Below, in pieces: positions 460 through 16,691 of a DNA stretch of 64,000 bases. Under the pieces are notes generated by a model. The model saw only the letters and a program-made list of their open reading frames with translations, was not told the DNA's origin and made no database searches. A program made the position numbers and the translations under genes. Source of the stretch: an uncultured Eubacteriales bacterium (GTDB taxonomy: Bacteria > Bacillota > Clostridia > Peptostreptococcales > Anaerovoracaceae); assembly GCA_902773835.1 (NCBI GenBank), contig CACYFZ010000005.1, positions 1-64,000 on the forward strand, written 5' to 3'. Position 1 is the stretch's first letter, and every line of letters starts with the position of its first letter.

Positions 460-1089
460 ATGAGTTCATTCTTTTCAAGAGGCAGCACTGCCAAAAATGT
501 CGTTTCCGAAGACAATCGCACTCTGGCGATAAATCGTTTGAAACCGCATTTTCTGAATAACATTCTGAGCACCATTTATTACCTTTGTGATTCTGATCCT
601 CAGAAGGCGCAGACCGTAACGGCAACTTTTTCGGAATATCTCCTTGGGGCTCTGGAGGCACTGAAAAAGGATGATCTTGCATCCTTTTCCTGGGAGATGG
701 GACTTATTCGCAGCTATCTCTCGCTGGAAAAGATTCGTCTGGATGACAAGCTGGCTATAGATTATGACGTGGATATTACCGACTTTAACATACCGCCCCT
801 GTCTGTACTTTTCTTAGTTGAAGATGCAGTTAAGCGCGGTATTTCAGGTCTTAACAAAACCGGAACGGTAAAGATATCTACCAGAAGGCTTGCCGGTGGT
901 GTTATACAGATAAAGGTTTGTGACGACGGCAATCCTCACGAAGAACCTAATCCTCAGAAAGCTGAAGAAATTAAAAAAGATTATGAAATCGTTCGCAAAC
1001 TCATTCAGCAGAATGCGGACGGAGAATTAAACATAAGTAAAAGAGAAGGCGGAGGGACAGAAGCGACTATTACTATTAGCGCTGAATAA
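460..1089 (+). CDS. Soluble LytS-type sensor kinase-like protein without sensor domain
   Basis: This 209-residue protein has a His_kinase (LytS/YehU type) H-box, RLKPHFLNNIL at about residues 25-36, and an HATPase-like C-terminal half ending GGGTEATITI. There is no membrane segment or sensor domain, so it would act in the cytosol, perhaps with a partner. The N-box reads VEDAVKRG where the family usually has a VENA-type motif, so a key ATP/Mg-binding Asn appears to be Asp. Phosphotransfer may therefore be weak or lost. It is followed within 3 bases by an HD-GYP protein and then a GGDEF protein, so it probably belongs to a cyclic-di-GMP operon. The family call is firm; activity is uncertain. 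Confidence 0.75.
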   Translation: MSSFFSRGSTAKNVVSEDNRTLAINRLKPHFLNNILSTIYYLCDSDPQKAQTVTATFSEYLLGALEALKKDDLASFSWEMGLIRSYLSLEKIRLDDKLAIDYDVDITDFNIPPLSVLFLVEDAVKRGISGLNKTGTVKISTRRLAGGVIQIKVCDDGNPHEEPNPQKAEEIKKDYEIVRKLIQQNADGELNISKREGGGTEATITISAE

Positions 1090-1091
1090 TA

Positions 1092-2996
1092 ATGATGGAT
1101 AATGAAAAGCGCATTGCAGAACTAACTAAATATATCGAAAGAGCTAAGAGGATTTTGGTTCTCTCCTCTCCTACTCTCGATAAAATCAACAACGAAGAAG
1201 ATTACCGTAAACATCTTCTGGAGTCCTTCGGAGAGATAGGAAGACTTGGGCAGAAAAATATAGAAACATTGGAGGAGCACTTTCTTCCTCTCTTAGATCC
1301 GGACAGAGAACTCGCTGAAGACGATGTTGAGCTTCTCAGGACTTTCAGCTCCATGCTTATTGATACCACCAGCATGGAAAACATCGACCTGCCGTTGATT
1401 TATCTTCAGGCAGAAAGGCTTATGGAAGCGGCGGAAAAAAGCGGAAGCATCAGAGACAAAGTGCTCGCCGCCGATAACATGGTCATCGCCTCTTACATGA
1501 TGATTAATATTTCCATAAGGCTCTATCCTGTTTTTAATGACTGTTTCCGCTACAGAGATGTGGGTCTTGAAGCAGCCCAATCACTTCTGGAGTATTTGGA
1601 TTATGATAAGTTCCTTACTCTTCCGGATGAGGAATGTCGCGAAAAAGTCCTTGTCAATTCAAGATATATACGCTCACTCTTTGTGTGGGACGACGGGAAA
1701 TATGCGCGTGAAGAAGCAAATCGCAAAGACTTGGATATGCTTAAACGTGCGCTGGCGCTTGCAGACGATCCTTTTTATCGTGAGCACGCAAGCGAATACG
1801 ATTGGGATATTCATGTCTTCCGCACACTTCAATACTTATCCGATTTCACGGAAGACAATAACAAGCATCAGTTCAATCAGGAACAGCTTGAAGAGATATA
1901 CAGATACACCCTGCAGCTGGTGGAGTTCCTTAAGGCTCACCCGGAGCTTGAATCAGGATGCCCTCCTATAGAGCAGCAATTCTATATGGCCCGTAATTCT
2001 TACCTTTCGGGACACAGTAATATAGATGACTACCGTAAAGCTCTTCTCAAGATTATGGAGGAGGGAGACAGGCACGACTTTACGGCCAGAGGAATGTTCG
2101 TAAGCCTGACCGCACCTTTGGAGTACATATTCTCACTGGATAAGGACAATATTACTTCTGAGCAGGAAGACGTAATCAGAAGAATATACATAGATATTGC
2201 ATCTTACGCATATCATATGCCTAAGACAGGAGTACTTTCGTTCATGCTTACATTCATCTCGGATCTTCTGAAGAACTTCATAGAAGTTCCGGGCGGAATG
2301 CCTTTCAGAAGCATGTGCAGAAGGCTCATAGCCGCTATGCATCCTCCTACATACGTACACTCACTTAATGTAGCAGAGATAGCCAAATTTCTCGGCAATG
2401 AGTTGCTGGAAAAAAGGCCTGAACTCTTTTCCGGAATATACGGTGCAGAGGATGCTGAGCTGGTTCAGAGTATGCAGGATGAGATTGAGGAGTTTATCTA
2501 TAACAGCGCCCTGATGCATGACGTCGGAAAGATTTTCATTATCGAAACGATATTGACATACGGACGCAGACTGGTCATGACGGAAAAAGATTTCATTCAT
2601 ACCCACACCAGAGTGGGGGCCTCTCTTCTGCAGAGATACCCTCAGACCTCTGAATATGCAGACATAGCGCTTGCACATCATCGCTGGTATGACGACAGTC
2701 AGGGTTATCCTGAAAACTTCAGAATAGCTGATTCTAAATATAAAACGATCATTTCGATAGTTCAGGCTGCCGACTGTATAGATGCAGCTACGGACAGAAT
2801 CGGCCGAAGCTATAAGGGAGGGCTTTCACTTCCTGCGGTAATCGATGAACTCCGTCAGGGAAGCGGAACTCAGTACGCACCGTTTGTGGTGGAGCTTTTA
2901 GACGATACTGCAGTTACGGACAGACTTCATAAGATACTTACAGAAGGCCGAGATGAGAATTACAGACTCACCTATCACCTTTTGGAAAAGTTATAA
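1092..2996 (+). CDS. HD-GYP-type domain protein (probable cyclic-di-nucleotide phosphodiesterase)
   Basis: This 634-residue protein has a long alpha-helical N-terminal region of about 390 residues without recognised domains, then a C-terminal HD-GYP-like domain. Visible motifs are HSLNVAEIA, the HD pair in LMHDVGKIF, HTHTRVGA, HHRWYDDSQGYPENF (containing HH and GYP) and AADCIDAATD. HD-GYP proteins hydrolyse cyclic-di-GMP using a metal centre. The start (ATGATG at 1092) follows the previous stop by 2 bases with no clear ribosome site, suggesting translational coupling. A diguanylate cyclase follows 23 bases later, so synthesis and breakdown of the messenger are encoded together. The substrate is inferred from the family. 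Confidence 0.85.
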   Translation: MMDNEKRIAELTKYIERAKRILVLSSPTLDKINNEEDYRKHLLESFGEIGRLGQKNIETLEEHFLPLLDPDRELAEDDVELLRTFSSMLIDTTSMENIDLPLIYLQAERLMEAAEKSGSIRDKVLAADNMVIASYMMINISIRLYPVFNDCFRYRDVGLEAAQSLLEYLDYDKFLTLPDEECREKVLVNSRYIRSLFVWDDGKYAREEANRKDLDMLKRALALADDPFYREHASEYDWDIHVFRTLQYLSDFTEDNNKHQFNQEQLEEIYRYTLQLVEFLKAHPELESGCPPIEQQFYMARNSYLSGHSNIDDYRKALLKIMEEGDRHDFTARGMFVSLTAPLEYIFSLDKDNITSEQEDVIRRIYIDIASYAYHMPKTGVLSFMLTFISDLLKNFIEVPGGMPFRSMCRRLIAAMHPPTYVHSLNVAEIAKFLGNELLEKRPELFSGIYGAEDAELVQSMQDEIEEFIYNSALMHDVGKIFIIETILTYGRRLVMTEKDFIHTHTRVGASLLQRYPQTSEYADIALAHHRWYDDSQGYPENFRIADSKYKTIISIVQAADCIDAATDRIGRSYKGGLSLPAVIDELRQGSGTQYAPFVVELLDDTAVTDRLHKILTEGRDENYRLTYHLLEKL

Positions 2997-3019
2997 GATT
3001 AAGAAAGGATACTCGTTAC

Positions 3020-3985
3020 ATGGATCAAGACAAGAATTTGGAGGCGCTTCAGGAAGAACTTGAAGAACTGCAGAATAAATATGATTTTTTGCTTTCTGCA
3101 GTCGATCACCTTCCTAATCCTATTTTTATGAAGGACGACCAAGCGCGTTTCTTCTTTTTCAACAAAGCATACTCGGAATTTTTTGATATGAAGGCCGAAG
3201 ACTATTACGGTACCACGGTACTGGACCTGGACTATCTTCCTCTGGAAGACAGGGAACGCTTTCAAGTCGAGGATCTGAGAAGAATTGCCGACAAAAGCGT
3301 AATCAGCTACGATACGGTTTTTACCACCGGTGACAACGTGGATCATCCGTCATTCTATTGGTCTTGCGGCTTTCAGGATGGCAAAAGCGGCAGACAGGGT
3401 CTCGTCGGAGAGATTGTAGATATTTCCAAAGAGCGCGCCCTCCAGGAATCGCTGGATGAATCCCTCGGCAAGCTCCAGAATGCCAATGAAATGCTCAAGA
3501 CCATGGCTGAGACGGATCATGCCAGCGGTCTCTATAATCGCAGTGTTCTCTGGGATAAAGGGAAATCCATGATCGAAAGGACCTCCATGATCAACCCTGC
3601 TACATGCATGATTATGATAGACCTTGATAATTTCAAGGATGTAAACGATGAATTCGGGCATCTTAAAGGTGATGAAGCTCTGGCAAAGTTTGCGGGTATT
3701 CTGAAAAGCGAATGTCGCTCCACGGACCTTCCGGTCAGATACGGCGGCGATGAATTCCTTGTTGTAGTGTACAATATCGGCCTGGAAGAATGTGTCAAGG
3801 TGGCAGAACGCATAAAGACCAGGTGCGAAGAAGAATTAATATTGCCTGACGGCAGCAACATAACCGCCAGCATCGGAGTCATAGAAATAGACGAAAATGA
3901 AGAATTTGAGAAGAATCTTACCAGATTGGACGATCAGCTCTACAAAGCCAAAGCTCTCGGCAGAAACAGAGTGGTCTACAAATAA
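3020..3985 (+). CDS. PAS-GGDEF diguanylate cyclase
   Basis: The 321-residue protein has a short coiled-coil start, a PAS domain (about residues 20-135, beginning LLSAVDHLPNPIFMKD) and a GGDEF domain (about 165-320). The active-site loop reads YGGDEF, and an RxxD inhibitory site (RSTD) sits five residues before it, so both catalysis and product inhibition look intact. It should make cyclic-di-GMP from two GTP. No membrane segment is present. An AAAGGA site precedes the ATG. It closes the plus-strand operon begun at 460; a perfect palindrome follows at 4016-4049. Confidence 0.93.
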   Translation: MDQDKNLEALQEELEELQNKYDFLLSAVDHLPNPIFMKDDQARFFFFNKAYSEFFDMKAEDYYGTTVLDLDYLPLEDRERFQVEDLRRIADKSVISYDTVFTTGDNVDHPSFYWSCGFQDGKSGRQGLVGEIVDISKERALQESLDESLGKLQNANEMLKTMAETDHASGLYNRSVLWDKGKSMIERTSMINPATCMIMIDLDNFKDVNDEFGHLKGDEALAKFAGILKSECRSTDLPVRYGGDEFLVVVYNIGLEECVKVAERIKTRCEEELILPDGSNITASIGVIEIDENEEFEKNLTRLDDQLYKAKALGRNRVVYK

Positions 3986-4083: not shown

Positions 4084-6744
4084 CTAGCCCTTTGTTTCGT
4101 AGGTCAAGCCTATCGCATTGGATCCGCAGTTTACGTAGGTCGCAGCAGAGCACTTATTCAGTATAATCTCGTCGAATTGTATATAGTGCTCTATTTCTTC
4201 CAGTATATGCTGCCTCAGTTCAGGCGAGCAACCGGAGAACGTAACAATAAGTCTCTTCCTCTTTATGTTGTTTTTATGCAGGAAGCAGCCTCTGATAAAC
4301 TCTTCATGGGTCGTTCTTACGTAGCCGAAGAGGAATCTCTTCACACGTATACGCCCCTTTCTTATTACAAACGAAGGCTCCAGATTGAATGTACTCATCA
4401 TGATGCGAGCGATAAGGTTTCCTTTGTACTTCGAACTTGTGCTCAGTATTGAAGGAACAATATAATCCACGGATATCGTTTTCCTGTACTGATCTAAATC
4501 CTTTTCTAACTCCTCAAAGCGCATTCCCTTGCTAAGCATATCCGCAGCTCTCAAAACCATCAGTCCGAGACCTGAAGATGAAAGCCCGGAATCAATTACA
4601 TGTACGTTTCCGAAACTATCGGCAGCCGTACTGGCATTGTAATATGCCGACGAGATATCCTTTGAACTTGAAATATGGACAACGGTTCTGGCTTCTGTCA
4701 GTGCATTTCCGAAGAATTCTTCATATTCCTCTACGGATGCCGGAAGTGAAGTGACCATATTTCTTTCCGATTGTTCCATCTGCTCTAAGTTATCTGAGTC
4801 TATCTCCTCTATATCTCTGAACCTTCCCTTGGCCGTCGATATATAATACGGCATTATCTCCAGTTCGAACTGTCTTATATACTCAAGCGGAATATCGCAT
4901 ATTGAATCCGTAGTTACTATAAATGGTCGTTTGTGAACGGCGCCCGTTATCTGAACGGATTCTTCCTCAGACTCCACGAATGAATGCTCTATGAGATCGG
5001 CAGGCAGACAGGCCATCAGTATAGCTTCCAATCGGCTCGACTGTATCGGCTTTGAAAGATATGCCGAGAATCCTTTTTCCATATAGAAAGCATCCATGTC
5101 GCTTCCTGCGTTGGCTGTAAGTGCAACTACCGGTGTCTCTCTGCAGAGTCCGTCGGTCTGTTGACGTATCTTATGGAGGGTTTCGATTCCGTCCATCTGA
5201 GGCATTTCGTGATCCATAAAGATCGCATCGTAATGTTTTTCTCTCGTCATCTCCAGGCACTCTCTGCCGGATTCAGCAAGATCTACTTTTACTCTAGTAG
5301 CCCTCAGAAGCTTGCGACATACGATTCTGTTCATATCGTTGTCGTCAACCACCAGGACCGTGGCTTTAGGCGCCTCGAAACTATGCTGATATTCAGGCTT
5401 TTCATGAATCATGAGATCCGGTTTCTTGAATGTCGCACCTTCGCCGGCCACCACTCCCTGCGGTATCTCCACACGGAATACAGAGCCCTTGGTGTAAATA
5501 CTGTTTACGGTGATATTGCCTCCCATAAGCTCTACCAGCTGTTTGGCTATGGAAAGACCGAGTCCCGTGCCCTCTATGTTCTTTGTATCCTCACCTTCAA
5601 CTCTCCTGAATGCATCGAAGAGATACTGAATGTTTTCTTTACGAATACCCATTCCGGTATCTTCTACGTCAACGTTCAGCATAAACTTATCGTCATTTAT
5701 TTTCTCTCCTCCGAAACGGAGTATAACCGAACCCTCATCGGTATACTTGATGGCATTGCTCAGTAGATTTACGATTACCTGCTTGATTCTGGTCTCATCT
5801 CCGTAGAGTGTCGGCGGGATATTATCAGCCACCTCAATGTCGAAGCTAAGGTTCTTTTCCATTGCTCGATTCCAATGCAGATTGGTTATATCACTGAGCA
5901 TGCTGCTGGTATCGTATTCAGTAGGAACGATTTCCATATTCCCGGACTGAATCTTGGACATATCCAGCAGGTCATTTATGAGAGACAACAGCATCTTACT
6001 CGCGGTCTGGATATTCACTGTGTTTTCCAGAACTTCTGCAGGAAGCGATTTCTCACGCATGGTCATCTCATTTAGTCCGATTATGGTACTTATAGGTGTA
6101 CGAATCTCGTGGCTCATAGACGAGAAAAAGCTGTTCTGCTGTTCGTTCAGTTTTTCAATCTCGTCTCTTTGCTTGTCCGTGTTCTCTATTTCCTTCTCCA
6201 GCACTGAGTTTTGGAAGAAGAAAAGCATACCTATTGAGAAGGAAACCAAAATGAGGGAAATATACGTATCCATATATTTAGTATATCCCTCCTGCAGTGG
6301 TACTACCCATTCCGGATGGTATTCGCTGGTGAAGATTGTCACTGCGAAGCTTGCGCATGTGATCAGGAAAAAGGCAAGCAGCATCTTTCCTCTGAAGTAT
6401 ACAAATACAATAACAAGTGCCAAAACCAGCCAAAGTGCCGCACCGCTGTCAATGCCGCCGCCGAGCATGTATCCCGGAGGAACTACCAACACATTAGAGA
6501 TAAACAGAATCAGGCTGGCACCCAATGTGTACTTTTTGGTTTTGATGGATAAATAAATAATTCCCGCCATCAGCACTTCCATCAATACCAGAATTACAGA
6601 AAAGCGCATGCTCTGGTTTGATGTAATTGTGCTTAAAAGCACGGCGAATACAGCAACGCAAGCTACGGTTCCGGTCAGTATGAACCTGCGCTCCTCTATT
6701 GAATACCCTTTTGAAAACATAAATTCTTTTATCTTTTTAAACAT
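4084..6744 (-). CDS. Hybrid histidine kinase with REC and C-terminal DegV domain
   Basis: The 886-residue protein has about six membrane segments (residues 22-180), a HisKA domain with H-box MSHEIRTP (His212), an HATPase domain (N-box VNLLSNAIKY, G-boxes DTGMGI and GTGLGL), and a receiver at about 460-580 with VDDND and phospho-acceptor Asp511 in FMDHEMP. Residues 606-884 then form a DegV/FakB-like domain: TTDSICDIPLEYI, TSLPASVEEY, HISSSKDISSAYYNA, VIDSGLSSSGLGLMV and FNLEPSFVIRKGRI. DegV proteins bind fatty acids and in FakB present them to the kinase FakA. Here the domain could sense or bind lipid next to a phosphorelay. It lies 2 bases downstream of another hybrid kinase gene, so the two are co-transcribed. 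Domain calls are firm; the ligand is inferred. Confidence 0.9.
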   Translation of the reverse strand: MFKKIKEFMFSKGYSIEERRFILTGTVACVAVFAVLLSTITSNQSMRFSVILVLMEVLMAGIIYLSIKTKKYTLGASLILFISNVLVVPPGYMLGGGIDSGAALWLVLALVIVFVYFRGKMLLAFFLITCASFAVTIFTSEYHPEWVVPLQEGYTKYMDTYISLILVSFSIGMLFFFQNSVLEKEIENTDKQRDEIEKLNEQQNSFFSSMSHEIRTPISTIIGLNEMTMREKSLPAEVLENTVNIQTASKMLLSLINDLLDMSKIQSGNMEIVPTEYDTSSMLSDITNLHWNRAMEKNLSFDIEVADNIPPTLYGDETRIKQVIVNLLSNAIKYTDEGSVILRFGGEKINDDKFMLNVDVEDTGMGIRKENIQYLFDAFRRVEGEDTKNIEGTGLGLSIAKQLVELMGGNITVNSIYTKGSVFRVEIPQGVVAGEGATFKKPDLMIHEKPEYQHSFEAPKATVLVVDDNDMNRIVCRKLLRATRVKVDLAESGRECLEMTREKHYDAIFMDHEMPQMDGIETLHKIRQQTDGLCRETPVVALTANAGSDMDAFYMEKGFSAYLSKPIQSSRLEAILMACLPADLIEHSFVESEEESVQITGAVHKRPFIVTTDSICDIPLEYIRQFELEIMPYYISTAKGRFRDIEEIDSDNLEQMEQSERNMVTSLPASVEEYEEFFGNALTEARTVVHISSSKDISSAYYNASTAADSFGNVHVIDSGLSSSGLGLMVLRAADMLSKGMRFEELEKDLDQYRKTISVDYIVPSILSTSSKYKGNLIARIMMSTFNLEPSFVIRKGRIRVKRFLFGYVRTTHEEFIRGCFLHKNNIKRKRLIVTFSGCSPELRQHILEEIEHYIQFDEIILNKCSAATYVNCGSNAIGLTYETKG

Positions 6745-6746
6745 GC

Positions 6747-9581
6747 CTAACCTCCGATTTCATCCAACGTGGCGATAGCGCCTTCAAAATCAAAATTAGA
6801 GGCTTTTTCCAGTACGTCGGAGAGCACCGTTTCAATAGGTTTACCTCCGAGTTTCCGTCCCTTTACGGAGTCAAGACATTCTTCGAAAGAATTTGTTTCA
6901 AATGACTCCAAGCAAGTCTTCATCTTCTTTTTAAGCTCATCCCAGTTCTCAATATCCTTTCCTCCTGCAGGAGTAGATACCGAAATCTCTCCCGACGCTT
7001 CATTCTCAGAATTAGCTTCGTCATCTCTGAGGCAGGCTTCTATTTGGCTAAGGATCTTAGCGTATTTGTCGATAAACTCCTGATGGTTGGCTCGAACGGC
7101 TTCCTCATCTCCGTCTTTGGCCGCCATTTCCTGAACGAGGGCCGTTTCCGAAAGGTCCGCGGCGCCGAGCGTCTTGGATGTGCTCTTAACGGTATGCGAT
7201 ACAAGTGCATAATTCTTCATATCCGCACTTTCAAGTGCTTCCTCCAGTTTTTCTGAGTATGTCTTTCCGCTGGCGCAGTACACTTCAGCAAGCTCCAGAA
7301 AATCCTCAGTAGATCCGCAGTACATAATCGCGGTTTCTTTATCTATGTCAGGTAAAGCATCAAACGGGTCTCTTCCTTTCTTAACAACAGGGGCAGGCTT
7401 CTCCGCTTTTTTCGATTTTTCGCTTTTTCCTGCTTTTTCATCCTTCTTTTTCGGCTTCTTTGAAGTGCTCTTTCTGCTTCTTTTATCTTCTTTAGGAGCA
7501 GGATTTGTTACTTCTGCCAGATCTTCCTCATCGAACTGCTTCTCAATAGGAATAAATCTATGCAGGATATCATTCAGAAGTGCCGTATCGATAGGTTTGG
7601 CGATAAACTCATTGAAGCCCTCGCCCAGGAACATCTCTCTGGAACCGGCAATGGCGTTGGCTGTAAGAGCTATGATAGGAACCTGCTTAAAGTAAGCTCC
7701 CTGCTTGTCCCTTATATGGTGGAAGCATTCGACACCGTCCATACCCGGCATCATATGATCCATGAATACGAAGTCGTAGTCCCTGGAATCTATCAAGTTG
7801 AGAGCTTCTTCTCCGGATGTGGCTGCCACGATTTTTATCTTATATTTACGCATCAGACCTTCCACAACCTTAAGGTTCATAAGGTTATCATCTACAACGA
7901 GAATCTTGGCCTTAGGCGCAACGAATCTTCTCTGCTTCTTCTTCTGTGTAAGCTGAGCTGTTTCGCTTCCGTTGAATATCTCCGCCAGCATCATCGCATT
8001 GTACGGTTTGTACAATACATGAATCCTAGGGCCTGTCTTCGGCGGTTGACTTCTGTCTGCTACCAATATTATTGTCTTTGTTTCGGACAATTCATCAAAG
8101 TATTCCTTATCCTGATTGTATTCTGTCTGGCCGATAATCAGGTGTGTTGTTTTTCCGCGAGATACACGGCGCTTGCACTCCTCAAGAGAAGTAGCTCTCT
8201 GTGATACAATGCCGAAATAGTCCGAAAAGTGTTTAATATGGTCAACAAATGCATCTCGCATCGTAGGAACATTGGACTGCGGATTGTAGAACCATATGAG
8301 TTTAATTGCTCCCGGTTTTTTAAGAGAGATGCAAGGCTGATCGTTCAATACCTTCTGCGGAATCGAGAAGGTAAACTCGCTTCCCTCTCCCGGCTGAGAC
8401 TTTATCGTCAGGAATCCTCCCATCTTCTTGATAAGTGCGGAAGAAATCGTAAGGCCGAGACCTACGCCGGAGCTTCTTCTGTTTCTGTCACTGTCCGTCT
8501 GATAGAAGTCTCTGAGAATTCTCTCGCATTCTTCCAGGCTGAGTCCGACGCCCGTATCTTTTACGGAAACGATAAGATTGATTCCGTATTCTTCCGGCCT
8601 GTATGTAACACGTACCAAAAGACCTCCCTCTGAAGTGAATTTTATGGCATTGCTTATGAGGTTGTTCAGAATTCTCCTAAGCTGCTGTTCATCCCCCTCC
8701 AAAAGGCACGGGATATTAGGATCGCAATCGTATATTATCTCAAGATGCTTTTCTCTGTTCTCGAATACTGTCATATTCATTACATCGTTGAGAGTGGATG
8801 TAATATTGTATGCACGAGGTGAGAGCTCCATGGTTCCGGACTCAAGCGCTGCGTAGTCCATGATATCCGTAACGATGTTCTGAAGTTCCACTCCCGTCAT
8901 CTGAACGTCCAGTACTCCTGCGTGAATATCGTCAGGGAGGTTCTTCTGCAGCAGGATCTCGCACATTCCCGAGATGGTATTTACCGGGGTGCGAAGTTCG
9001 TGTGATGTGTTGGCCATGAAGTCGTCCTTGACCTTCTTTTCCACCTTGACCTGGTTTTCCAAAACCACCACGTCATTTTCTTCCTGGACATGATGATAAA
9101 TTCTGTATATACAAAGAACTATTAGTATCACGAGTGAAAGCAGTTGCAATAACATTCTGTTTTTTTCAGTTGAATCTTCCGGAAGAATAAAATTGTGCTT
9201 AACAGCTGCGTGATAGAAAAACAGAATAAGCGTCTGCGCTATGGCTATATCCATTATTCTCGGAAGCTCATACAATGACAGCAGAACGACTTCCACGCAC
9301 AACGTAGGAATCAATACATTGAAATTCTCTCCGTGAACGGCGTACAGTAATACATTCAGGCATATCATAAATGTGCCCATAAAGGCACGGAAGAGATATG
9401 ATTGGAAGTTGGTCGCATAACTCCACCAAATGTAAGCGAGCTCGCAAGCGATGAGCGGCACATACCATACCGGCCAGTTCATCAGAGCGGTCTCAACAAT
9501 CATCAGAACGGAGAATATCGTAAACGAAAATGTAATTACTAATTCTCTTCGACGTTGCCTGTTTGCTATATGATCATTCAT
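6747..9581 (-). CDS. Hybrid histidine kinase with pseudo-receiver, receiver and HPt domain
   Basis: This 944-residue protein has about five N-terminal membrane segments, HisKA with NTSHELRTP (His194), and HATPase with LNNLISNAIKF, DTGVGL and GVGLGL. A degenerate receiver-like stretch without the usual acidic pocket follows (about 425-560), then a full receiver with VVDDNLMN and FMDHMMPGMDG. A Lys/Ser-rich linker leads to an HPt domain with SHTVKSTSKTLGA, whose His is the likely phospho-relay residue, and a roughly 60-residue helical tail. It can therefore hold a complete His-Asp-His relay. Its start overlaps the end of the HD-GYP regulator gene by 4 bases, so that regulator is the obvious output partner. 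Confidence 0.92.
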   Translation of the reverse strand: MNDHIANRQRRRELVITFSFTIFSVLMIVETALMNWPVWYVPLIACELAYIWWSYATNFQSYLFRAFMGTFMICLNVLLYAVHGENFNVLIPTLCVEVVLLSLYELPRIMDIAIAQTLILFFYHAAVKHNFILPEDSTEKNRMLLQLLSLVILIVLCIYRIYHHVQEENDVVVLENQVKVEKKVKDDFMANTSHELRTPVNTISGMCEILLQKNLPDDIHAGVLDVQMTGVELQNIVTDIMDYAALESGTMELSPRAYNITSTLNDVMNMTVFENREKHLEIIYDCDPNIPCLLEGDEQQLRRILNNLISNAIKFTSEGGLLVRVTYRPEEYGINLIVSVKDTGVGLSLEECERILRDFYQTDSDRNRRSSGVGLGLTISSALIKKMGGFLTIKSQPGEGSEFTFSIPQKVLNDQPCISLKKPGAIKLIWFYNPQSNVPTMRDAFVDHIKHFSDYFGIVSQRATSLEECKRRVSRGKTTHLIIGQTEYNQDKEYFDELSETKTIILVADRSQPPKTGPRIHVLYKPYNAMMLAEIFNGSETAQLTQKKKQRRFVAPKAKILVVDDNLMNLKVVEGLMRKYKIKIVAATSGEEALNLIDSRDYDFVFMDHMMPGMDGVECFHHIRDKQGAYFKQVPIIALTANAIAGSREMFLGEGFNEFIAKPIDTALLNDILHRFIPIEKQFDEEDLAEVTNPAPKEDKRSRKSTSKKPKKKDEKAGKSEKSKKAEKPAPVVKKGRDPFDALPDIDKETAIMYCGSTEDFLELAEVYCASGKTYSEKLEEALESADMKNYALVSHTVKSTSKTLGAADLSETALVQEMAAKDGDEEAVRANHQEFIDKYAKILSQIEACLRDDEANSENEASGEISVSTPAGGKDIENWDELKKKMKTCLESFETNSFEECLDSVKGRKLGGKPIETVLSDVLEKASNFDFEGAIATLDEIGG

Positions 9582-10654
9582 ACTGTATCCTCATCTTCCA
9601 CGTATGCTTTTAGCTTGTCTCTGAGTCCGACAAACACTTCAGTAAGTGTAGGATCGAACTGAGTTCCGCCTGATTCTTCTATTATGGACAGAACGGTATC
9701 CACACTTCTGATTCCTCTGTGATATACCCTGTCCTCACACAGGGCATCGAACACGTCCGCTATAGCCATAATACGTGCGCTGAGCGGTATCTCTTCTGCC
9801 AAGAGGCCTTCCGGATAGCCGTTTCCGTCCCAACGCTCGTGATGGTAAAGAGCCACGTCTCTTGCTATCTCCAGATACTCGGGGTCTTCTATTCCGCCGA
9901 GTATTTCCTCCACTATATCCGCACCGTACCTGGTGTGGCTCTGAATGATTCGGTACTCTTCTTCGGAAAGCTTGCCCGGCTTCTGAAGAATGAGATCCGT
10001 AATCTTTATCTTTCCTACGTCATGGAGAGGTGCAGCTTTAATGAGCTTCTCTCTGTACGCTTCATCCAATGTTTCCGGGAAGAGCTCTTTTTCCATAAGA
10101 GCAGCACTCAGCAAGTCTACATAAGTTTTCGTGTTCTTAACATGACGTCCCGTGCTGTTATCTCTCTCTTCAATGAGATTGGCCATTCCTTCGATTATCG
10201 CATCCTGGATCTCTTCCAGTTGCTCACTTTGGTCGTGTATGTTCCGGGCCTGCTCCTCAACCGTCGTTTCAAGTTGCTTTCTGTACTGATACAGTTCCAG
10301 AATTCTGCGCACTCTGCCCTTCAATACAAGCGGTACGAATGGCTTGCTGACATAATCGACCGCTCCGGCCTCCAGACATTTGGCCTCTATCTGCGGTGTC
10401 TGCGATGCAGATAAAAAAATCACCGGAATATTATCAAACTTAGAATCTTCTTTCAGCTTTTCCATGACTTCGAAACCGTCAAGGTCAGGCATATTAAGAT
10501 CCAGCAGTATAAGATCCGGTGTATTGTTTTTCAGATATTTAAGTGCCATCTCTCCGCTGATGGCCGCCGCCACTCTGTAATCGTTCTCAAGAATTCCCTT
10601 AGCCAATTTTAGGCTGGTAGTATCATCGTCAACGATCAAAATAATCTGGTCCAT
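9578..10654 (-). CDS. Response regulator with HD-GYP output domain
   Basis: The 358-residue protein has a receiver domain (residues 1-120) with VDDD and DLILLDLNMPDLDG, a coiled-coil linker (about 125-160) and a complete HD-GYP domain: GRHVKNTKTYV, HDVGKIKI, SHTRYGADI, HHERWDGNGYPEGL and ADVFDAL. This RpfG-type layout cleaves cyclic-di-GMP when the receiver is phosphorylated. It is the first gene of a three-gene minus-strand operon and overlaps the next gene by 4 bases. The HPt of that gene's product is the likely phosphate donor. Confidence 0.94.
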   Translation of the reverse strand: MDQIILIVDDDTTSLKLAKGILENDYRVAAAISGEMALKYLKNNTPDLILLDLNMPDLDGFEVMEKLKEDSKFDNIPVIFLSASQTPQIEAKCLEAGAVDYVSKPFVPLVLKGRVRRILELYQYRKQLETTVEEQARNIHDQSEQLEEIQDAIIEGMANLIEERDNSTGRHVKNTKTYVDLLSAALMEKELFPETLDEAYREKLIKAAPLHDVGKIKITDLILQKPGKLSEEEYRIIQSHTRYGADIVEEILGGIEDPEYLEIARDVALYHHERWDGNGYPEGLLAEEIPLSARIMAIADVFDALCEDRVYHRGIRSVDTVLSIIEESGGTQFDPTLTEVFVGLRDKLKAYVEDEDTV

Positions 10655-10899: not shown

Positions 10900-11946
10900 T
10901 TGGGAAAAATCGTCATTCACATCGGCTTTCCGAAGACAGGAACAACCTCTATTCAGGCGTTTCTTTATAAGAATCGTAAGCTCCTTAGAGCCCAAAATAT
11001 TTATTACGAAATGTTTTCAAAATCCAGAGATAATATAATCGGAGATGTTGAGCCATATCGAAACGGTACTTTTCTTGAAATAGATAATCCTCTTTATGAA
11101 AAAGATAAGACCGTAAAGAAGCTTATCACTTTTATCGATAAGAGCACGTTAAAAAGATTATCCAAGAACAATCACACTGCTTTATTTTCATATGAAAATC
11201 TGTCTCTTACATGTTACGTTGATTAGTCATTAATAGCGGAATTGTTAAAGCAATGCGGCTTTGATAATGTAAGTATTATCGTATACATCAGACCGCAGGA
11301 TAGCTTTCTTCTCTCTTCATGGAAAATGAGCATTAAAGGATGCTATGAAGGTTCCAAAATGGACTTCTTTGACTACTGCAAAAGCTTCGAACGGAATGCA
11401 CATTATGATATACGCCTTGAAGAAATCGAGACGAATTTAGAATCTTTTCAGAGTGAAATAAATGTCAGAATATACGACAGAAACAGATTTGAAGGCGGCG
11501 ATATTTATCATGACTTTTGCTCTGCAATCGGATGCAAGTGGGATCCGCGTTTTGAGATTCCGCAGGATGTGAACACTACAACCACTCTTGATGTAACCGA
11601 AGCTCTTCGCATTATAAACAAAATGGGATATCCCGGCATTCACGACAATAAAGAAAAGCGCAATCGTATTATGAGAGCTGCAGAGGGATATTCAAGAGAA
11701 CATCCGGAAACTGTTAGAATGTATCCTCTTGCGCCCGACAAGCGCCGGGAGTTAATGAATCAATTTATAGAATGCAATAATAAATTGGCTGAGCGATACC
11801 TAAAAGAAGGACAGAAGGATATCATTCTTGGCTGGAAGGCAGAAAGCGATTACGATCTGTGGCAGCCTGATGAAGAAAAAGCCGAATCCATTGCAGCAGA
11901 GATCCTGAAGCGAGCCGGTTTAAAAAAAACATCCGATGATAAGTGA
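10900..11946 (+). pseudogene. PAPS-dependent sulfotransferase, interrupted by an in-frame TAG
   Basis: Reading starts at TTG 10900 after an AGGAG site and would give about 348 residues but for a TAG at 11224-11226. The frame is the same on both sides, so this is one nonsense codon and not a frameshift. The N-terminal piece has the PAPS-binding loop HIGFPKTGTTSIQ; the piece after the stop has YIRPQDSFLLSSW, matching the FRRQDDWLESAW region of the intact paralogue at 11962-13026. A sulfotransferase would move sulfate from PAPS to a glycan. Split in this way, neither piece should be active unless the stop is read through. A sequencing error cannot be excluded from this window alone. Confidence 0.85.
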
Positions 11947-11961
11947 TGCACAGAAAAGTAT

Positions 11962-13026
11962 TTATTCATTTAGAATGTTTTTTAAAGCTCCTGCATTTGG
12001 AGGCCAGTATCCAAGCTGCAGCATAGAGGCTTCGTGCTTTTGATTTTCTCGCAGTACCCCCCTATTTTCCGGTTCATCGAAGAGTTTATCCTCTCCGAAA
12101 TATGTCCGGGCAATATACCGATTATCTTCTTCGAACTCTTTTAACAGCGTTCTACGCTCTTCTATATTCAACAACCTTTCTCCTTTCGGATCCGGATGTT
12201 TTTCGGAAAAAGAGAGTGCCTCTTCATACAACTCGCACACAGTAATGTCCGATTTAAAAAGTTTCAGTATTATCGGAGCCATAAAGTTAATACGCCTGAA
12301 TATATTAGTCAATAACCACACGCCCTCTGATGCAGCATTACTCAATGAAGCGTTAGTCAAATTCTCGGGCACAACAAACCTGTCATCCCACTCTAGGCCT
12401 ATAGATTCTATGAAATCCCGACAGATACCTTTCTTTATCAGATTCTTATCGTATTTTCGGACTAGGAAGTTTTCTCTTCCGTATGACTTTTCAAGAAATA
12501 GCATTCTCTTTCCGTAATGCAGAAATTCATCAAATCTTTTTTTATAGCTGTGTATACTGAGACTGTTGACGTTCGTCCTGCTTTTTTTGTCTTCTTTCCA
12601 CGCAGATTCAAGCCAGTCATCTTGTCTTCTGAAATAAACTACCGGCACTATGTCCGCACCGGAAAACATCTCATTTAAGAAAGGTCTCAGGCTGCGCATT
12701 CCTCCCGGAAGGCTGTACAACACCTCGTCCGACAAAATAATAGTTTCATAGTCTTTCGACCATTCCTTTAGTTTGGATAAATCCTCTTCTACAAGTTTTT
12801 CATCAGCCCATATTCCTTCACCGCAAAGTAACATCGACTTAAATTTCAATGCCTCAGCATTCTTATATGGCTGAAACGGGCTGCTGATAACAGATGAATT
12901 GTAATATCCCGCACCCTGTTCCGATAGAAGTTCTTTATTATCAACTAAAAATTTTTGAAGCGCCGTGCTCCCGGTTTTTGTAATTCCGATATGCAGTATT
13001 ATCTTCTTATTTCCGCTATAACTCAT
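11962..13026 (-). CDS. PAPS-dependent sulfotransferase
   Basis: The 354-residue protein carries the 5'-phosphosulfate loop ILHIGITKTGSTALQ at residues 9-23 and a likely 3'-phosphate-binding segment VVYFRRQDDWLESAWKED near 130-147. No signal peptide or membrane segment is seen, so it should act in the cytosol. The acceptor is probably a nucleotide- or lipid-linked glycan made by the same operon. It is the last gene of the long glycan operon, 44 bases after the TSUP transporter gene. It is related to the genes at 10900 and 16692. The family is clear; the acceptor is unknown. Confidence 0.85.
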   Translation of the reverse strand: MSYSGNKKIILHIGITKTGSTALQKFLVDNKELLSEQGAGYYNSSVISSPFQPYKNAEALKFKSMLLCGEGIWADEKLVEEDLSKLKEWSKDYETIILSDEVLYSLPGGMRSLRPFLNEMFSGADIVPVVYFRRQDDWLESAWKEDKKSRTNVNSLSIHSYKKRFDEFLHYGKRMLFLEKSYGRENFLVRKYDKNLIKKGICRDFIESIGLEWDDRFVVPENLTNASLSNAASEGVWLLTNIFRRINFMAPIILKLFKSDITVCELYEEALSFSEKHPDPKGERLLNIEERRTLLKEFEEDNRYIARTYFGEDKLFDEPENRGVLRENQKHEASMLQLGYWPPNAGALKNILNE

Positions 13027-13070
13027 GTCTTGCTTGATTTACTCTTTTCATGTTCGGTCACTTTTCCGTT

Positions 13071-13826
13071 CTACCCTCTCATCCAGGTAACAAAATTTAT
13101 TATATTCAGTATGATGATCAGAACTCCTACGGCAACCATCAGCGGCCTGTGGGGCAGTTTTTTGCAGAAAAATGCTGCAAGAGGCGCTGCAACAACGCCG
13201 CCGATAATCATGGCAAGTATCATAAAGCCATAAGATTTAATATCGCTGATTAATACAGCGAATGTAGTTGTCTCTGCTAAGGTAACCAAAAATTCCGCCG
13301 CATTGACCGTTCCTATACTTTTCTTAACATCGCTTCCGGATGCCACCATAGTAGAAGTAACTATAGGGCCCCAGCCTCCGCCTCCGGCAGCATCGAAAAA
13401 GCCGCCTGCGAATCCGAGCGGATATATAACCTTATCTATATCCACTTTTTTATTATCTTTGCTCATAGCTTTACGCAATATGACAATTCCCATAATGATG
13501 AGGTAAACATCTATGAAAGGTTCCAGCTTGTCTCCGGCACCTGACAGAAACCATGCACCTATAACACCTCCGATAACTCCGGGGATCATAAGCTTTTTGA
13601 ATCTGTTTTTGTCGACATTCCCGAGCTTAAAATGAGAGACGCCCGATACCAGCGTCGTAGGAACTTCCGCTGCATGTATGACCGCACTCGCCAGTGCAGA
13701 CGGGAGCCCTGCCACAGTCTTAAGAAAGGTGCGGCCCGAAACACCGTAAGCCATGCCCAGAGTACCGTCTATCATCTGAGCCAGAAAGCCTATCAATATG
13801 AATAATAAAAAACTCTTTAACTCCAT
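13071..13826 (-). CDS. TSUP family membrane transporter (TauE/SafE type), probable sulfate importer
   Basis: About 251 residues from the ATG at 13826, chosen because a GGGGAT site lies just before it; an in-frame start 11 codons upstream is less likely. The protein is mostly hydrophobic with about eight membrane segments and has the glycine-rich family pattern (IDGTLGMAYGVSGRTFL near the start, FFDAAGGGGWGPIV in the middle). TSUP proteins move sulfite, sulfonates, sulfate or sulfur compounds. Because it directly follows cysD and cysNC in the operon, sulfate uptake for PAPS synthesis is the most likely role. Direction and substrate are inferred from context only. Confidence 0.85.
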   Translation of the reverse strand: MELKSFLLFILIGFLAQMIDGTLGMAYGVSGRTFLKTVAGLPSALASAVIHAAEVPTTLVSGVSHFKLGNVDKNRFKKLMIPGVIGGVIGAWFLSGAGDKLEPFIDVYLIIMGIVILRKAMSKDNKKVDIDKVIYPLGFAGGFFDAAGGGGWGPIVTSTMVASGSDVKKSIGTVNAAEFLVTLAETTTFAVLISDIKSYGFMILAMIIGGVVAAPLAAFFCKKLPHRPLMVAVGVLIIILNIINFVTWMRG

Positions 13827-13878
13827 ATAACAATCCCCATCTATTATCTGCAGTAACAATTAATCGCCTGTAGTTGCG

Positions 13879-15699
13879 CTATTTCATCTTTTTGCTGATT
13901 TCCCTTATCAGTAAAGCTGCTGCATCCTCCGGAGACCCTTCGCTCATATCTATGGTGAAGTCCGGATTATCCGGTCTTTCAAACGGGCTGCTCACTCCCG
14001 TAAACTCGGCAATCTCTCCGGACCTGGCCTTCTTATACAAGCCCTTTACATCCCTCGATTCGCATACTTCGATAGGTGTATCTACAAAGACTTCAAAGAA
14101 AGCATCCTTACCTATTATCTTACGAGCCAGTTTTCTGTCTTCTTGATAAGGCGAAATAAATGCGGTAAGCACGATAAGTCCTGCATCATTCATAAGTTTG
14201 GAAACTTCAGCCACTCTTCTTATGTTCTCAGCTCTGTCATCTTCGTTAAATCCCAAGTCATTATTAAGACCGAGTCTTACATTATCTCCGTCAAGAAGCA
14301 TGGTATGCCTACCCATGGCGTGCATAGCAGTCTCTACCGCGTTGGCCAACGTGGATTTTCCGGCACCTGAAAGTCCGGACATCCATATCGTCAGAGGCTT
14401 CTGACCCATAGCTTCAGACCTTAGTTCTTTTGTAATATCTGTAGCATGATATGTTAAGTTCGTTCCTGCTTCTTTAGTTGAAACTATAGTTCCGCATGCC
14501 GCAGTGGCATTGCTTACCCTGTTTATCAGCAAGAATCTTCCCAGTGCCGGAAGTTCCTCGAATTTAGTGCAGACTATCTTCCTGGATATTCTGATTTTTA
14601 CACAGGCTATATTGTTTTTTTCTACTTTCTCTGACTTTTGCTTTTCTCCGCTTGAAGCGTCTTCCAGGTAAGATATTTCATTCACCTGAGCGGGAACGCT
14701 GCACGTTCCGAGTTTTATGTAGTACGAGCTGTTAAGATCCAAAGGCTCATCATCAAACCAAATAATCTTGGCTTCTATGCTGTCAGTCTTCCTCAGAGTT
14801 TCGGAGTCAGTGATTACATCTCCCCTGCTTATATCTATATCTCTGTCTATTGTTATGGTAACAGGGCTTCCGGCAGAGGCAGTCTCTTTATCTTCCGCCG
14901 CCTTTATTATCGATGTTATTTTTGCATATTCATTGCCGGGCAGCACCCTTACCCGTGATCCTATACCGATGCTGCCTGCAGCGATTTCTCCTTCATATCC
15001 TCTGTAGTCTGCATTTGGTCTGCAGACTCTCTGCACCGGCATTACAAAATCCTTGCACGGAATATCTACATCGATTTTTACTCCCTCCATGTACGAGAGA
15101 AGGTTCGGTCCGTCATACCAAGGCATGCGCTCTGATTTCTTCGCAACATTGTCACCATCATATGCGGATAGAGGTATGATGCAAAGTTCATCTATTCCCA
15201 GATTTTCCGAAAGTGACATTAACTCAGTCTCAACACTTTTGAAAACATCTTCTGAGAAATCTACCGTGTCCATTTTGTTGACTGCGAACACAAAGCTTTT
15301 TATGCCCATCAATCTGCATATTCTGGCATGTCTGTACGTCTGAGTCTTTATGCCTTTGGATGCATCCAAAAGGATTACAGCCAAGTCGGCAAATGATGCT
15401 CCTACAGCCATGTTCCGTGTATATTGCTCATGTCCCGGCGTATCTGCAACTATGAAGCTACGCTCTTTGGTAGTGAAGTAGCGATAGGCGACATCTATTG
15501 TGATACCCTGCTCTCTTTCATCGGTAAGACCGTCCAGTAAATCTGCATATTCAAATCTGCTTCCGTCAGTCGGCCCTTTCTCCAGTTCTTCCTGCTGGTC
15601 GTCGAAAAGCAGTCCTGCGTCATAGAGCAACCTTCCCATCAAGGTGGACTTTCCGTCATCTACGCTGCCGCATGTGAGGAATTTCAATAATTCTTTCAT
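13879..15699 (-). CDS. cysNC: Bifunctional sulfate adenylyltransferase GTPase subunit / APS kinase (CysN-CysC fusion)
   Basis: In this 606-residue fusion, residues 1-420 are CysN, an EF-Tu-like GTPase: CGSVDDGKST P-loop, DTPGHEQY and NKMD motifs. Residues about 435-606 are CysC: P-loop GLSGAGKSTLA and DGDNVRLGLNNDLGF. With CysD it makes APS from ATP and sulfate, driven by GTP hydrolysis, and the CysC part phosphorylates APS to PAPS. The start overlaps the cysD stop (TAATG). No PAPS or sulfite reductase gene is present in the window, while sulfotransferases sit on both sides, so PAPS here probably feeds sulfation and not cysteine synthesis. The same fusion (NodQ) serves sulfation in rhizobia. 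Confidence 0.95.
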   Translation of the reverse strand: MKELLKFLTCGSVDDGKSTLMGRLLYDAGLLFDDQQEELEKGPTDGSRFEYADLLDGLTDEREQGITIDVAYRYFTTKERSFIVADTPGHEQYTRNMAVGASFADLAVILLDASKGIKTQTYRHARICRLMGIKSFVFAVNKMDTVDFSEDVFKSVETELMSLSENLGIDELCIIPLSAYDGDNVAKKSERMPWYDGPNLLSYMEGVKIDVDIPCKDFVMPVQRVCRPNADYRGYEGEIAAGSIGIGSRVRVLPGNEYAKITSIIKAAEDKETASAGSPVTITIDRDIDISRGDVITDSETLRKTDSIEAKIIWFDDEPLDLNSSYYIKLGTCSVPAQVNEISYLEDASSGEKQKSEKVEKNNIACVKIRISRKIVCTKFEELPALGRFLLINRVSNATAACGTIVSTKEAGTNLTYHATDITKELRSEAMGQKPLTIWMSGLSGAGKSTLANAVETAMHAMGRHTMLLDGDNVRLGLNNDLGFNEDDRAENIRRVAEVSKLMNDAGLIVLTAFISPYQEDRKLARKIIGKDAFFEVFVDTPIEVCESRDVKGLYKKARSGEIAEFTGVSSPFERPDNPDFTIDMSEGSPEDAAALLIREISKKMK

Positions 15700-16613
15700 T
15701 AGAAATATCCCTCCTTCTTTCTCATTTCCATGCTGGCAGAGCCTCCGTCCTTATCTATAATTCTGGTGGTCCTCTCGGATGCGGATGCGTGAAGAGTCTC
15801 TTCAACCACTTCTTCAATTGTATCCGCTTCAGATAATGATCCTCCCGTGAGAGGATAACATCCGAGCGTGCGGAATCTCACACTAAGCTCCTCAATCTTC
15901 TCTCCGTCTTTCAGCTTTAGTCTTTCATCATCTACCAATATGTACTGTCCGTCTCTGCATACCACTGGTCTCTTCTTTGCAAAGTAAAGTGGTACAATTT
16001 CAATATTTTCCTGCATTATGTATTGCCACACATCCTTTTCCGTCCAATTGGAAAGAGGGAATACTCTCATGCTCTCTCCTTTGGCAATCCTCGTGTTATA
16101 CAGATTCCACATCTCAGGTCTTTGATTTCTCGGATCCCATGCCTGGTTAGCATCCCTGAAAGAGAACACCCTCTCCTTTGCTCTGGATTTCTCTTCGTCT
16201 CTTCTGGCACCTCCGAATGCCGCCGTAAATCCGTACTTCGTAAGAGCCTGTTTCAGCGCTTCCGTCTTCATGATATCCGTATATGCAGCACCATGGTCGA
16301 ACGGATTTATTCCCTTACGAACACCTTCTTCATTTGTATGCACAATAAGTTCGAGACCTTTCTCTTTCATTACTCGGTCCCGAAACTCTATCATTTCCTT
16401 AAATTTCCATCCTGTATCTATATGCATAAAAGGGAACGGCGGTTTTTCCGGGTAAAAAGCCTTTTCCGCCAGTCTGAGCATGACGGAAGAATCCTTTCCA
16501 ATAGAATAAAGCATAACGGGCTTTTCACACTCTGCTGCAACCTCCCGTATTATGTAGATAGCCTCTGCTTCCAACCTGTCTAAATGTGTTTTGCTTACCA
16601 ATTCGGTTTTCAT
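15699..16613 (-). CDS. cysD: Sulfate adenylyltransferase subunit 2 (CysD)
   Basis: About 304 residues from the ATG at 16613. The short upstream extension is rejected because the truncated copy at 17844-18179 starts at the matching codon. The PP-loop for ATP is [13 protein letters not shown], and [17 protein letters not shown] and [12 protein letters not shown] are typical CysD segments. CysD catalyses adenylation of sulfate to APS with CysN as partner. The gene is translationally coupled to cysNC and lies 78 bases after a sulfotransferase gene. A second, partial cysD copy on the other side of that sulfotransferase marks a rearrangement. Confidence 0.96.
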
Positions 16614-16691
16614 CTTCTTTTGTAAAAATCTCCTTACTCTCATTCGTTATAATATTTCACACAATCATTAATAATCTCTCAATTAATCGAT

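Follow-up and report, generated by a model that had tools for sequence, protein, structure and literature searches.

A membrane hybrid histidine kinase (HK2) that continues into a complete DegV domain is encoded near one end of the window, which is the whole 64,000-nucleotide stretch of DNA analysed. The same fusion is found in 22 sampled proteins, which come from at least three families of the class Clostridia and from many assemblies. DegV proteins are known to carry fatty acids and pass them on to FakA. The DegV domain of HK2 may well be a FakB-derived intracellular sensor of a ligand, probably a fatty acid, that feeds an Rpf-like c-di-GMP relay.

The HK2 protein and recurrence of the fusion

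The frame of HK2 occupies exactly 4084..6744 on the minus strand and encodes 886 aa without internal stops, as revealed by ORF reading. Its parts are as follows.

4084..6744, minus strand: HK2, histidine kinase-receiver-DegV protein (single ORF, Pfam domains, orthologues)
6175..6744, minus strand: membrane region, residues 1-190, about six predicted transmembrane segments (hydropathy, AlphaFold helices)
5941..6138, minus strand: HisKA, residues 203-268, phospho-acceptor H212 (Pfam 1.3e-16, motif)
5458..5802, minus strand: HATPase_c, residues 315-429 (Pfam 3.2e-25)
5020..5358, minus strand: receiver (Response_reg), residues 463-575, phospho-acceptor D511 (Pfam 3.8e-26, motif)
4927..5004, minus strand: variable, poorly ordered REC-DegV linker, residues 581-606 (31-58% identity; pLDDT below 50 at 586-604)
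4093..4917, minus strand: DegV domain, residues 610-884 (Pfam 5.1e-30; AlphaFold pLDDT 85.6; Foldseek match 2dt8, TM 0.84, E 5e-26)

Hydropathy places the roughly six transmembrane segments within residues 20-182. The kinase motifs are intact (H212 in SHEIRTP, SNAIKY, DTGMGI, GTGLGL), as are those of the receiver (D511 in FMDHEMP, K565). With the HisKA histidine, the N and G boxes of the HATPase and the Asp and Lys of the receiver, HK2 qualifies as a hybrid histidine kinase. The DegV family profile PF02645 matches with 105 bits (cut-off 27) over profile positions 4-279 of 280, and the NCBIfam DegV model with 115 bits (cut-off 99.7). The motifs TTDS, TSLPAS, HISSS and IDSGLSSSGLG are all present. 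The Pfam domains, the open frame and the presence of all motifs named beforehand confirm the original prediction that one chain joins a hybrid kinase (HisKA, HATPase, REC) to a full-length DegV domain.

The AlphaFold model of the DegV part (pTM 0.86) retrieved only DegV/FakB chains among its top 45 Foldseek matches in the PDB; in many of these a fatty acid is bound. The best match, 2dt8, is a fatty-acid-binding DegV protein; FakB1 reaches a TM score of about 0.83-0.85. The least confident stretch of the model, residues 767-774 of the protein, coincides with the dynamic, membrane-inserting region of FakB1 (PMC8892158). In the full-length model of HK2, the REC-DegV linker is disordered, and the domain arrangement was left uninterpreted because of the low pTM (0.39).

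A species genome scan detected the fusion in nine orthologous loci. Eight align over the full length with 51-65% identity, and the ninth is truncated where its contig ends. They come from rumen and gut assemblies, one of which is labelled Mogibacterium (Anaerovoracaceae). Profile searches added 12 more divergent fusions, which come from three further genera of this family and, within the class, from the families f37 and f53. The order HisKA-HATPase-REC-DegV was confirmed by Pfam in those divergent proteins that were scanned. When about 400 genomes from across the phylum were searched, their matches included no fused frame from outside the class Clostridia. The distribution of the gene in the genus is patchy (five of 47 genomes), with DegV attached in every case. 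The nearest relative lacking DegV is a 586-aa HK-REC frame in genome G008, which scores 566 bits as against about 1650.

The source genome is a draft assembly of 42 contigs, in which two genes might have been merged by a sequencing, assembly or frame error. However, the frame is open throughout, and the same junction is seen in 22 proteins of many assemblies. This recurrence therefore excludes a frame error or assembly join, and we regard the chance of such an artefact as negligible. A close DegV-less orthologue was not found among the 47 genomes of the genus. One of the other loci is a mosaic: L037:2-2332 (the same gene as L019, genome G017) has a transmembrane start equal to that of L031, while its remainder is about 95% L034-like. 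Either a recombination event or chimeric assembly near the end of the contig can account for this.

When 22 fused DegV domains and 37 free ones were placed in one maximum-likelihood tree, a branch with 100/100 support separated all fused domains from the free ones. This fits a single origin of the fused domains, and since they form one clade, repeated independent fusion is rejected within the sample. For the DegV part, close pairs give dN/dS ratios of about 0.05-0.10 and a wider pair gives 0.22, which indicates purifying selection on this domain. Among orthologues, the conservation of DegV is intermediate: the kinase core and the receiver are better conserved, the transmembrane part and the REC-DegV linker generally less well.

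Operon structure and the Hpt domain

HK2 is the last gene of an operon, preceded by a REC-HD-GYP regulator and a second kinase (HK1). Three further genes converge on it.

9578..10654, minus strand: REC-HD-GYP response regulator, 358 aa, stop overlapping the HK1 start (Pfam Response_reg and HD_5)
6747..9581, minus strand: HK1, HisKA-HATPase-REC-Hpt protein with about five transmembrane segments, 944 aa, upstream of HK2 at a distance of 2 bp (Pfam, including Hpt at 7.5e-07)
3020..3985, plus strand: convergent PAS-GGDEF gene (Pfam; by eye, a similar neighbour in L032, L033, L034 and L037)
1092..2996, plus strand: convergent HD-domain gene (Pfam HD; by eye, a similar gene in L031)
460..1089, plus strand: convergent small LytS-type His_kinase gene (PF06580; by eye, a similar small gene near most genus-level orthologues)

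The orthologous loci of sufficient length repeat the order regulator-HK1-HK2, as do most of the distant ones; the HK1 of L055 was recovered by tblastn. Exceptions are L088, which has no adjacent regulator, and L095, where a receiver protein is located downstream instead. In L088, from an f37 genome, the place of the regulator immediately upstream of HK1 is taken by a CheW gene and a chemotaxis receptor gene (L088:1462-3320). Elsewhere the regulator takes the forms REC-HD-GYP, REC-GGDEF-REC, REC-GGDEF-REC-HD-GYP or REC-Hpt, while in L054, L055, L056 and L089 it is a protein of about 120 aa which by eye resembles REC alone.

Each module has one recognizable Hpt domain, usually on HK1, with a weak match in some HK1 proteins. 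In L095 it is found behind the DegV domain of HK2, and in L094 on the regulator; in both loci HK1 is devoid of Hpt. As a single Hpt relocates among the members of the module, the two kinases are probably parts of the same phosphorelay. Judging from gene order and Hpt placement, both probably feed a relay that ends mostly in c-di-GMP turnover. The convergent genes at 460-3985 of the window and their similar neighbours in other loci suggest a wider c-di-GMP locus. On the other side of the operon (window 10900-16643), the ORF list shows sulphotransferase-like ORFs beside apparent sulphate-assimilation genes (CysN/C-like, CysD-like and a TauE-like permease).

Ligand-site residues, FakA and candidate functions

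In FakB1, the fatty-acid carboxylate is held by a network of Thr62, Ser95, Ser171 and His270, while Arg173 is catalytic and doubles as a latch, and Arg205 is required for FakA binding (PMC8892158). The corresponding positions of HK2 are listed below. The counts come from an alignment that covers 37 free DegV domains as well as the 22 fused ones; its FakB mapping carries a shift of one to two residues near the HISSS motif.

4327..4329, minus strand: F806 at FakB1 Arg205 (FakA docking); Arg in 37/37 free and 1/22 fused domains
4423..4425, minus strand: K774 at FakB1 Arg173 (catalysis, latch); Arg in 37/37 free and 6/22 fused domains
4129..4131, minus strand: N872 at FakB1 His270; Asn in 21/22 fused, His in 36/37 free domains
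4651..4653, minus strand: S698 at FakB1 Ser95 (carboxylate ligand); Ser in 15/22 fused domains, invariant in genus-level orthologues
4747..4749, minus strand: S666 at FakB1 Thr62; Ser/Thr in 17/22 fused, Thr/Ser in 37/37 free domains

The Ser171 position is Lys, Ser or Ala among the fused domains and Lys (K772) in HK2. Thus, two of the four positions of the carboxylate network are altered in HK2 (K772, N872), and S666 and S698 are plausible members of it. Ser95 is not retained in f53 and some f37 members. The conserved Gly-Gly preceding Arg173 is lost in the fused domains, and the docking Arg205 is also missing from most fused proteins of FakA-bearing genomes.

The source genome (96% complete) has no DegV besides the fused one and contains PlsX; neither FakA-like_C above the cut-off nor Dak2 was found in it. 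FakA-like_C above the cut-off is absent from all 24 genus genomes examined, whereas of 16 genomes from elsewhere in the order 15 have it. Within this genus sample neither FakA nor a free DegV is encoded (0/24), while nearly all genomes have PlsX. The use of exogenous fatty acids via Fak thus appears to have been lost in the genus lineage. Among the 13 genomes carrying the fusion, seven have neither FakA (above the cut-off) nor another DegV, and six have both.

It had been predicted that the kinase might control fatty-acid loading by phosphorylation, HK2 then being a FakB whose receiver governs loading for FakA. Membership in the DegV family and the presence of FakA in six of 13 carrier genomes are compatible with this. 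However, FakA and Dak2 are missing in the source genome, FakA is missing in seven of the 13 carriers (the source and six others, which also lack a free DegV), and both the docking and the catalytic arginine are gone. The absence of FakA and the loss of the arginines make a role as FakA partner very unlikely, and FakA-dependent loading is rejected. The other function originally predicted, cytosolic fatty-acid sensing, can still be inferred from the fold, from purifying selection and from the Thr62/Ser95 hydroxyls in close orthologues.

We distinguish this role from two others which accept the same domain structure. The DegV domain could recognize a ligand other than a fatty acid, such as another acyl compound or a polar metabolite, with the exchange of His for Asn marking a new specificity. 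The change at His270 in 21 of 22 fused domains and the loss of the Gly-Gly before Arg173 would agree with this, as would the retained fold and purifying selection; against it, the nearest solved structures are all DegV proteins, many of them fatty-acid-bound, and the hydroxyls of Thr62 and Ser95 persist in close orthologues. We consider such a ligand unlikely. Similarly doubtful is a ligand-free scaffold for protein-protein contacts or dimerization, which might, for example, hold REC in place for phosphotransfer to the HK1 Hpt. In the related kinase L040, an Hpt-like segment by eye takes the place that DegV has in HK2, and the ligand-network residues drift in distant members. Yet hydroxyls at two carboxylate positions are retained in most members, and a scaffold has no need for a near-invariant Asn at a ligand position.

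In the sensor reading that we prefer, a FakB-type fold would have been repurposed as an intracellular sensor on a membrane-anchored kinase. The ligand would most likely be a free fatty acid or another acyl lipid acquired at the membrane. Once in the pocket, it might rearrange DegV and REC and thereby shift the kinase/phosphatase balance of HK2. Phosphate would then pass from the HK2 receiver to the one Hpt that the module has, which HK1 usually carries, and on to the REC-HD-GYP regulator, a putative phosphodiesterase that would lower c-di-GMP; HK1 would be a second input to the same relay. More specifically, and more tentatively, the fused proteins could represent a FakB-derived, FakA-independent family of fatty-acid receptors which couples the free fatty-acid pool to c-di-GMP via a two-kinase, one-Hpt relay in Clostridia and persists where Fak has been lost.

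To our knowledge, inputs have been established for only a minority of the hybrid kinases in anaerobic Clostridia. If the proposal is correct, a clade of DegV proteins has left FakA and joined a kinase, so that a carrier has turned into a receptor, and a direct route would lead from the intracellular lipid state to c-di-GMP in these organisms. The exchanges at Arg173, Arg205 and His270 make the sensor hypothesis accessible to simple biochemistry.

Comparison with known systems

At the outset, no described protein with the HK-REC-DegV architecture was known to the first observer, and searches of the open literature for DegV in connection with sensor or histidine kinases and response regulators agree: no description was found, and one paper mentions DegV merely as a neighbour gene (PMC3146951). 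The component parts are of known kinds; their combination and the move away from FakA are apparently new, at least to us.

HK2 shares the HisKA-HATPase-REC core with hybrid kinases of the TorS/BarA/ArcB type. In contrast to these, it scores far below the equivalog cut-offs and has a C-terminal DegV domain where they have Hpt.

HK1 and the regulator resemble, in domain layout, RpfC and RpfG of the Xanthomonas DSF system, a 5-TM HK-REC-Hpt kinase which senses a fatty acid and an HD-GYP regulator (PMC5391125). We take this pair as a working precedent by analogy for a fatty-acid input into an HK-REC-Hpt/HD-GYP pair. RpfC, however, lacks a DegV domain and uses a region of 22 residues at its N terminus for sensing, whereas here a second kinase bears a DegV domain.

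With FakB1 and FakB2 of Staphylococcus aureus, the DegV domain of HK2 has in common the fold, the TDS and Ser motifs and the flexible ligand-portal region; hydroxyls at the Thr62 and Ser95 positions of the carboxylate network are retained in the close orthologues. It differs in being joined to a membrane hybrid kinase, in the altered Arg173, Arg205 and His270 positions, and in that many carrier genomes are without FakA.

By eye, other families of the order contain proteins of about 600 aa in which an apparent Dak2/FakA-type domain is fused to DegV, for example L119:200-2017 (minus strand). DegV is likewise the C-terminal domain in these Dak2-DegV proteins; in contrast to HK2, the partner is apparently a FakA-type kinase domain, the GGR sequence is retained, and the fusion is metabolic rather than signalling.
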